Assembly: GCA_001917435.1 (NCBI GenBank)
Contig: MNEA01000031.1
Location: 1 to 64,000, forward strand
DNA length: 64,000 nt
Direction: 5' to 3'
Origin: Acidobacteria bacterium 13_2_20CM_2_57_6
GTDB taxonomy: Bacteria; Acidobacteriota; Terriglobia; Acidiferrales; UBA7541
Position numbers and translations under genes: made by a program. Below the pieces are notes generated by a model. That model did no database searches. It was not told the DNA's origin and saw only the letters and a list, made by a program, of their open reading frames with translations. Below, one piece after another: positions 61,285-64,000 of the stretch (its first letter is position 1; every line of letters begins with the position of its first letter).

Positions 61285-64000
61285 TCACTTCTTCAACGCC
61301 TCCAGCATCTCGCCCTTGATCTGCCCGTCCTGCTCGACGCGCCCGGTCACGCGCATCGTGCGCGTTTCAAACACCAGACCGCCATAGCGATCGTACGCAT
61401 CGGGGAAAAGCACCACTTCATACACGCCGCGCTGGTCCTCCAGCGTGACGAACATCATGTTACGGTAATTTTTTGTTCCCACGTGCCGGTAAGTCACCAC
61501 CCAGCCGCACAGCGTCACGCGCTTTCCGCGCAAGCCAGGAAGTTCGTCGCTCCAGGCTTCGCCGTTGCGCGGCAAAAAATCGAGCGGATGGCCGCTCACA
61601 CACACTTCCAGAATTTCGCGTTCGTAGCGCAGTTTTTGTTCGAGCGTATATTCCGGGGTCTGCATTTCCACCAATGCCGCGCCAATCGCATCCGTAGCGT
61701 TTGCTTCTGCAAATAACGTTTCCGTTTTTTCCGACAGCCCGATTCCTTGTCCCGGGCGAATTCGCGAAGCATTCGGTTGCGCGCCTTTGCCGGCTGCTTG
61801 CAGCAGATTCCAGCGCCACAGCAGTTCCGGCCGCGTCATTCTGCGCGTTCCATCGTTCACTTCATCAAATGCCCCGCACTTGATCAGCGATTCGATCTCA
61901 TCGCGTTCCACCGGAACGCGCCGCAAAAAATCTTCGAGCGATTGAAACGCTCCGCCTTCTCCCCGCGCCCGCAAAATGGCCGTGATCGTTTCCACGCACA
62001 GTCCCCGCACTTGCATCAAGCCCACGCGCAGCGCGCGCTTCCCATCTTTACCATCTTCCGCCGTGTACTCCATCCGCGAATGATTCACCGACGGCAGCCG
62101 CACCGCGATGCCCCAGCGCTTGGCCTCCTCCACATACGCCGACACGTGATAAAACCCCGCCCCCGCGCTGCACATCGCCGCAAGAAATTCCGCCGGGTGA
62201 TGCGTTTTCAGATATGCCATGCGGTACGAAATATCCGCATATGTCGCGGCGTGTGCTTTGCAAAAACCAAAGCCCGCGAATTTTTCCACCATCATCCAGG
62301 TCTCTTCGCGTTGCTGGCTGGTCAGCCCCATCATTCCCGCGGCTTTCAGGAATTTTCCGCGCAACCGGTCGCGGTCGCTCCGGCCGGAGAATTTCGCGGA
62401 GGCTCGTCGCACAAGGTCGGCTTCCGCCAGCGACATGCTCCCGAGAGATTGCGAAATTTGCATCACCTGCTCCTGGAAAATACATACGCCCAGCGTGTCG
62501 CCAAGAATTTTCTGGAGTTCCGGGTGCGCAAATGTGATTTCTTCCTCTTTCCGCAGCCGCTTCACAAATAATTCTTTCGATCCATACTCCGCAGCGCCCG
62601 GCCGGATGATTGCCAGGGCGATGGCCATTTCCTCGAGCGTCCGCGCGTTCAGCATGCGAAGCATGCCGCGCATGGCCGGCGATTCGATCTGGAAAACTCC
62701 CATGGTCCGCCCGGCCGCAATCACCTCGCACGTCGCAGGATCGTTTTCCGGTATCGCGTCAAAATCAATTTCACGTGCGGTGGGACAGACATTCCTGTCT
62801 GTCCGCTTTCTGGGTTGTGGTTCGCGCACGCCAAGAAAGGCAGGAATGCCTGTCCTACTTTTTTCGATGTTGTCCAGTGCCAGCGACATTGTGGTGAATC
62901 CACGCTGGCCAAGCAGATCCATCTTAATCAGCCCGAGCGCTTCGATGGCGTTCATGTCGTACTGCGTAACGACAATTCCTTTCGTGGCGCGCTCCAGCGG
63001 CGTCAGCCACGTCAGCGGACGCGCGGAAATCACCGTGCCGCAAGGATGAATCCCGAGATGCCGCGGCGCGTCGTCGAGACGCAACGCCACTTGCAGGATC
63101 GTTTTCCAGGGCTCATCGTCGATCGGCAGGTCGCGGCATTCCGGGAGCGCGCGAATGGCCTGCAAAATTTCACGCACCGGCCGGTGCGGCAGCCGCTTCG
63201 TGAAACGGTCCACTTCGCCCGGCGGCACGCCAAACACTTTTGCCACTTCGCGCACGGCGAGCCGCGCGTGCATGGTGACAAAACTCGAGATCATTGCAAC
63301 GTGTTCCGAGCCCCAGTGCTCGTACACGTAATCGAGCAGCTCGTCACGGCGGGCGCCGCAAATATCGATATCGATGTCCGGGCAATCGCCACGCTGCTCA
63401 TTCAAAAACCGTTCGAAATACAGTCCCCAGCGCAGCGGGCAGACGCGCGAAATTCCCAGGCAGTACGTCACCATCGAACTCGCGGCTGATCCGCGCGCCA
63501 CCGCGGGAATTCCACGCCGCCGCGCTTCCTTCACGATGTCCAATACGAGCAGAAAATACGGCGCCAAGCTCCACTTCTTGATGACTCCCAATTCGCGCAT
63601 CAGCCGCTCATGCACTTCTGGTGTTACTGAGTGATAGCGTTTCCGCGCACCCTCGAGGCTTACTTTTTCCAAATAGGAATCCGGCGTCTCGCCTTCCGGA
63701 ACGGCAAACTCCGGAAAGATCCGTTTTCCCAGTTCGAGCTGCAAATTGCAGCGGTCCGCGATTTCCAGCGTTGCCTGCAGCCATTCCGGATGATCGGGGA
63801 AAAGTCTTTTCATTTCTGCAGCCGGCTTGAACCATGCCTCGCCGGTGGTGATTTCCGGTGGCGCCACCGTGGTCAACAATCCGCCGGTGCGGATGGCATT
63901 CACCGCGCGGTGATGCAGATGCTCTTCGGGCCGCAAAAAATGAACGTTGTTTGTTACTACCAGTCGCACGCGGAGTTCGCGGCCAAGGCGTTCCGCTTCG
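61285..64000 (-). CDS. dnaE2: Error-prone DNA polymerase III alpha subunit (DnaE2-like), N-terminus beyond window
   Basis: ARGSAASSMVTYCLGISRVCPLRWGLYFERFLNEQRGDCPDIDID; ends with OB-fold CGWVVTYRHVGTKNYRNMMFVTLEDQRGVYEVVLFP; frame open to the window end. Confidence 0.88.
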   Translation of the reverse strand, partial: EAERLGRELRVRLVVTNNVHFLRPEEHLHHRAVNAIRTGGLLTTVAPPEITTGEAWFKPAAEMKRLFPDHPEWLQATLEIADRCNLQLELGKRIFPEFAVPEGETPDSYLEKVSLEGARKRYHSVTPEVHERLMRELGVIKKWSLAPYFLLVLDIVKEARRRGIPAVARGSAASSMVTYCLGISRVCPLRWGLYFERFLNEQRGDCPDIDIDICGARRDELLDYVYEHWGSEHVAMISSFVTMHARLAVREVAKVFGVPPGEVDRFTKRLPHRPVREILQAIRALPECRDLPIDDEPWKTILQVALRLDDAPRHLGIHPCGTVISARPLTWLTPLERATKGIVVTQYDMNAIEALGLIKMDLLGQRGFTTMSLALDNIEKSRTGIPAFLGVREPQPRKRTDRNVCPTAREIDFDAIPENDPATCEVIAAGRTMGVFQIESPAMRGMLRMLNARTLEEMAIALAIIRPGAAEYGSKELFVKRLRKEEEITFAHPELQKILGDTLGVCIFQEQVMQISQSLGSMSLAEADLVRRASAKFSGRSDRDRLRGKFLKAAGMMGLTSQQREETWMMVEKFAGFGFCKAHAATYADISYRMAYLKTHHPAEFLAAMCSAGAGFYHVSAYVEEAKRWGIAVRLPSVNHSRMEYTAEDGKDGKRALRVGLMQVRGLCVETITAILRARGEGGAFQSLEDFLRRVPVERDEIESLIKCGAFDEVNDGTRRMTRPELLWRWNLLQAAGKGAQPNASRIRPGQGIGLSEKTETLFAEANATDAIGAALVEMQTPEYTLEQKLRYEREILEVCVSGHPLDFLPRNGEAWSDELPGLRGKRVTLCGWVVTYRHVGTKNYRNMMFVTLEDQRGVYEVVLFPDAYDRYGGLVFETRTMRVTGRVEQDGQIKGEMLEALKK
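62780..62858. repeat. Palindromic repeat element inserted in-frame within dnaE2
   Basis: Left arm GTGGGACAGACATTCCTGTCTGTCC and the reverse complement of the right arm GTAGGACAGGCATTCCTGCCTTTCT are near-identical; left arm itself folds (GGACAGACA-TTCC-TGTCTGTCC region). Confidence 0.75.

Follow-up and report, generated by a model that had tools for sequence, protein, structure and literature searches.

How a palindromic DNA element comes to lie within the coding sequence of a conserved DNA polymerase without breaking its frame is the question raised by this locus, which is part of a 64,000-nucleotide stretch (hereafter, the window) of contig MNEA01000031.1 from Acidobacteria bacterium 13_2_20CM_2_57_6, a soil organism. 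The first-pass annotation had described a 79-bp inverted repeat at 62780-62858 in a DnaE-type gene with an intact frame, and both the sequence and the open reading frame agree exactly with that description. The element is very probably a REPIN mobilised by a RAYT (REP-associated tyrosine transposase; HUH, Y1) and inserted in frame at a tolerant loop of the polymerase. A REPIN is a non-autonomous miniature mobile element composed of two inverted GTAG-type REP hairpins.

The element and its host gene

The features on which the argument builds are as follows.

61285..63999, minus strand: open reading frame of a DnaE-type DNA polymerase III alpha subunit, the second DnaE of the genome, running on to contig position 64656 (TIGR00594; Pfam PHP, alpha and finger domains)
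62780..62858, no strand assigned: REPIN of 79 bp, a head-to-head pair of GTRG-tagged REP hairpins (sequence and copy searches; the plus/minus architecture is the same in other copies)
62780..62804, plus strand: REP half 1, GTGG tag and perfect 9-bp hairpin GGACAGACA-TTCC-TGTCTGTCC (sequence; related copies)
62805..62833, no strand assigned: 29-bp spacer between the two REPs (sequence)
62834..62858, minus strand: REP half 2, GTAG tag and GGACAGGCATTCCTGCC, with partial decay of its 3' arm (TTTC in place of TGTC; sequence, with the arm intact in the sister species G028)
62776..62859, minus strand: extra in-frame peptide SRTGIPAFLGVREPQPRKRTDRNVCPTA, between NIEK and REIDFDAIPENDP (open reading frame and homologue comparisons; predicted disordered)

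The element is a dimer of two separate hairpins, not one simple palindrome, and carries the four-base tag GTAG or GTGG: half 1 reads GTGGGACAGACATTCCTGTCTGTCC (62780-62804, plus strand), and half 2 begins GTAGGACAGGCATTCCTGCC (62858-62834, minus strand). The terminal tag followed by a short imperfect palindrome, by which GTAG-type REPs are recognised, is found in both halves, and their inverted arrangement at conserved spacing is that of a REPIN, while many singlets exist too. The in-frame segment amounts to 28 residues or 84 nt (62776-62859, minus strand). As the REPIN can be read without a stop in five of its six frames, in-frame insertion is easy. On our reading of the sequences, the spacer diverges more than the REP arms when G024 is compared with the window's own genome (G000) and G028.

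On the extended contig the full polymerase gene encodes 1123 aa in an uninterrupted open reading frame. The name dnaE2 used in the first-pass annotation is acceptable in the sense of a second DnaE-type polymerase; among the models compared, only the superfamily model TIGR00594 is passed (760 bits, cut-off 434), and the protein stays below the NCBIfam cut-offs of both the curated error-prone model NF004225 that stands for DnaE2/ImuC (678.9 bits, cut-off 939) and the replicative model NF004226 (835 bits, cut-off 1002). The core dN/dS of 0.09-0.16 indicates that the polymerase is under purifying selection. For the insert, dN/dS is 0.4-0.6 and synonymous divergence is below that of the core, a weak estimate from 28 codons only; recent exchange or nucleotide-level constraint would be possible causes, and since a purely neutral old relic would not be expected to show such lowered divergence, this observation counts against our preferred explanation. 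AlphaFold assigns the insert a pLDDT below 50 at residues 374-400, and thus predicts it to be disordered. It begins about 22 residues after Asp351, which is invariant in the homologue alignment and which, from general knowledge of Pol III alpha, we take to be the third catalytic aspartate (KMDLLG). A gene for a Pol IV-like Y-family polymerase (contig C77, 64684-66258, minus strand; L048 6685-8259) lies upstream, its end about 27 bp from the DnaE gene, and given this short gap the two probably form a translesion operon.

Copies of the repeat and a candidate mobilising enzyme

Copies were counted by a pattern search with a 15-base core and at most one mismatch, the reversed pattern serving as control. 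The window's own metagenome-assembled genome (MAG; 4.46 Mb, 169 contigs, 81.6% complete) holds 16 core matches versus 0 for the reversed control, so that further copies of the repeat exist in this genome, and 13 matches once the GTRG tag is required; two core matches fall within the window (0.17 expected). The tagged pattern yielded 32-44 matches in five genomes of the same genus and 0-10 in the others, with almost none for the reversed control. A repeat search of the 251-bp stretch with default settings found none. Close pairs are arranged head-to-head in 11 of 12 cases in G024 and in all three in G000, and mostly span 73-79 bp in total. In G024, about 30 of 32 elements of this REP family lie outside coding DNA, as judged by a codon test together with its dnaE2 copy, and for a second REP family in G008, 35 of 41 sampled elements are located outside genes. 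The family is thereby multicopy in the richest genomes (13-44 tagged matches) and mostly extragenic in G024, as GTAG-REPs are, and the suspicion in the first-pass annotation that such repeats are common in acidobacterial intergenic DNA holds for the non-coding DNA of the host's genus.

A candidate mobilising enzyme is present in a relative. G023 carries a Y1 transposase gene of 218 aa (L119, 1444-2097, minus strand) with matching REPs of the window type on both flanks, the arrangement that defines a REPIN-RAYT pair. Its product matches Y1_Tnp (PF01797) and scores 78.1 bits against NF047646 (REP-associated tyrosine transposase), just below the cut-off of 80. Related RAYTs in G028, G013, and G009 have the variant GTGGCACAGGCATTCCTGCCTGTGC beside or around them. 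No intact RAYT was detected in the own MAG by a PF01797 search, which speaks against RAYT mobilisation, although this assembly is only 81.6% complete. It does contain a RAYT fragment (G000:C159:7369-7524, L174) with 61% identity to the G023 enzyme and one in-frame TAG stop, 45 bp from a REP copy. The broken fragment beside a REP copy looks like loss of the mobilising enzyme in this genome. As the own MAG holds a broken fragment and no PF01797 match, the RAYT association is proposed for the lineage, not for the window's genome today. The elements would probably move as single-stranded hairpin DNA through RAYT catalysis, and their distribution is what suggests that they are mobile at all.

This architecture was compared with that of known systems. 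The inverted REP doublets of Pseudomonas fluorescens, for which REPINs were described (Bertels and Rainey, 2011; PMC3116915), are likewise of conserved size (71 bp for GI there, mostly 73-79 bp here), and in both systems the same REP is found on either side of a RAYT gene, here in G023. The present family differs in its low copy number (SBW25 has 1,422 REP segments, the richer genomes here 13-44 tagged matches), in the lost or broken RAYT of the window's own assembly, and in that some of its copies lie within coding sequence. For several Acidobacteria, genes resembling RAYTs but with different flanks were reported (PMC3733652), and REP counts are given in PMC12306157.

The first-pass annotation had likened the repeat to the Rickettsia-type palindromic elements (RPEs), and small palindromes lying in frame within conserved housekeeping proteins indeed recall the RPE situation. 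The family likeness ends there: the GTRG tag, the head-to-head REPIN dimer, and the RAYT flanked by the same REP place the element among GTAG-REPs and REPINs, whereas RPE-4 and RPE-6 of Rickettsia conorii, from another lineage, were placed in the CGTC super-family, a group without an associated transposase (PMC3733652). RPE membership was rejected, as the element carries GTRG instead of the CGTC tag and is linked to a RAYT. An RPE, or another MITE unrelated to RAYTs, is therefore a highly improbable identity for it.

Alleles of the loop and insertions at other linkers

The gene is present in 27 of 36 same-genus genomes, and the loop was compared among them and in more distant relatives. The window-type REPIN occupies it in G000, G028, and G024, an unrelated GTAGGGGC-type REP is found there in six species (G011, G032, G008, G030, G012, and G025), and seven species carry simple repeats of the KEVKEIKEVKE type (e.g., L020, L026, and L037-L040), while G031 has a mixture of them with another insert. 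The loop is nearly empty, with 6 residues, in G009 and the order-level outgroup G037, and comprises 3-5 residues in alphaproteobacterial homologues, in line with the earlier statement that related polymerases have a short loop at this place; the segment is absent from these distant DnaE proteins and outgroup alleles, and it is precisely here that close homologues diverge. Conservation in distant DnaE2 proteins and absence from the rest of the genome, the two outcomes that the first-pass annotation named as refuting, are thus both contradicted. In L259, a homologue from a more distantly related acidobacterium, the loop holds a third REP dimer, GTAGCACAGGCTTACAGCCTGTGC...GCACAGGCTACAAGCCTGTGCTAC; a search of that genome with its pattern gave 60 matches and 0 for the reversed control, and the other two REP families at the loop are multi-copy as well. 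Since different REP families and simple repeats are found at one loop in relatives, the loop is a recurrent landing site for unrelated elements.

In the gene tree, G000 and G028 on the one hand and G024 on the other are not sisters, with inner nodes weakly supported at 43-67%. The partly shared spacer and the identical right junction would point to one REPIN origin in the three species. An ancestor of the window's species and its sister G028, probably also of G024, would have received the insertion in frame, a short way past the third catalytic aspartate (KMDLLG). All five gene-bearing genomes with at least 13 tagged matches have the window-type REP inside the polymerase gene.

An assembly artefact, or a decaying pseudogene in which any insertion is tolerated, might be suspected from a MAG in 169 contigs and from a polymerase that is the genome's second DnaE and can probably be dispensed with. 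Either is very hard to reconcile with a homologous insert that shares its junctions in two further species whose genomes were assembled separately, with a reading frame open in 27 of 27 homologues, with the low core dN/dS, or with the catalytic aspartates being present. Programmed bypass or splicing was likewise rejected, as every insert is in frame and stop-free in all 27 homologues, which skipping would not require.

The loop is not the only site in this polymerase. Tagged hairpins in the 27 DnaE2 genes number 34, compared with 2.9 expected from codon shuffling, and 5 versus 2.0 expected in 16 genes for the replicative DnaE1. In G028, a second copy of the window-type REPIN family is located near the C-terminus in a different frame, common to G014 and half-kept in G023. 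The PHP-domain linker carries GTAGGGGC...GCCCC hairpins in most species. This linker also includes further in-frame repeats in DnaE2 homologues, namely TCCTTCGCTTCGCTCAGGATGAC (SFASLRMT) and AGTCACC-type tandem repeats (TSHQSRVTSH). On a further reading, which we consider rather unlikely, the linkers would act as preferred targets in which REP families swap in place, the outer GTAGGGGC...GCCCC frame being kept and the inner stem exchanged. Mobile hairpins would then continuously reshape what is probably a translesion polymerase, and perhaps how active it is.

Other genes also contain in-frame copies. Coding status was assigned with a codon-usage score from 26 window ORFs and then, for most positives, family models, a procedure that can miss coding copies. 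The following REPs are in frame and have coding sequence to either side. Those of the own genome lie in a UbiD-type menaquinone decarboxylase and in a cysteine desulfurase; the desulfurase is also hit in G024 and the decarboxylase in G028, which has another in ArgS. G008 contributes PurL, Der, SMC, and the PdxS-PdxT junction, and a 1054-aa ORF (L307, C64) with two second-family REPs in frame. The Der and ArgS inserts lie between annotated domains. Besides its REPs, the 1054-aa ORF contains other repeat-like peptides. In G008 PurL (L301), one linker (residues ~625-680) contains the REP and, after it, another repeat-like peptide (CHSERSEES). At the PdxS/PdxT junction (L329, G008:C331, ~2084-2106) the REP lies with both genes in one open reading frame, and its insertion may have created the gene fusion.

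Probable tolerance of the insert, possible function, and meaning

It was conceivable that the hairpins have been recruited for a function in the mRNA or the protein, such as translation pausing between domains, transcript stabilisation, or altered polymerase fidelity. The REP stems of the PHP linker show strong covariation (score 0.499, against 0.20 or less in slid controls), with 96.1% of cells paired, and the REPIN stems change little among G000, G028, and G024 despite high core synonymous divergence; REPs in repair and replication genes were moreover speculated to alter mutation rates (PMC3733652). Nevertheless, the covariation does not prove selection on RNA, because it would equally arise if REPs had inserted independently or had exchanged sequence with copies elsewhere in the genome, or through template switching within the palindrome. 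Sister species have a wholly different insert or almost none at the loop, so the polymerase requires no specific hairpin or peptide there, and the minus-strand hairpin is decaying in the window's own species. We thus regard a recruited function as unlikely. Of the earlier term "domesticated", a mobile palindrome inserted in frame is retained, and a new function as the sense of the word is unsupported.

With most REPIN frames lacking stops, an in-frame copy would do no more than add about 28 disordered residues. Purifying selection on the gene persists, and the peptide would be tolerated, provided that the insert is neutral and the longer protein is expressed as we assume. Unrelated REP families and simple repeats have repeatedly come to occupy the loop and two or three other linkers of this protein. 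On the best reading, REPINs persist in coding DNA only when they are in frame at flexible linkers.

GTAG REPs inside genes, dnaE2 included, were published by Di Nocera, De Gregorio, and Rocco (2013), who suggested flexible linkers as their sites; the GTAG/GTGG-tagged hairpin dimers encode 20-30 residues in replication and repair genes, and recB of two Xanthomonas species has different REPs at about the same site (PMC3733652). The present case shares the tag, dimer form, peptide length, and gene class, including DnaE2. It differs in its host, an uncultured Gp2-type Acidobacteriota member, in that one loop hosts, across a genus and a more distant relative, simple repeats and no fewer than three unrelated REP families, and in the nearly empty alleles and the DnaE1 control. 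For Acidobacteriota, our literature searches turned up no earlier account of REPs inside genes. With intragenic REPs known since 2013, what is offered here is an unusually clear allele series and an unusual concentration in one gene.

The nearly empty and alternative sister alleles show a miniature mobile element joining conserved proteins in free-living bacteria, and unrelated elements occupying the same protein linkers again and again. What has been known chiefly from Rickettsia is thereby extended to Acidobacteriota, together with a plausible enzyme, and the allele series constitutes a natural set for testing whether such peptides matter.
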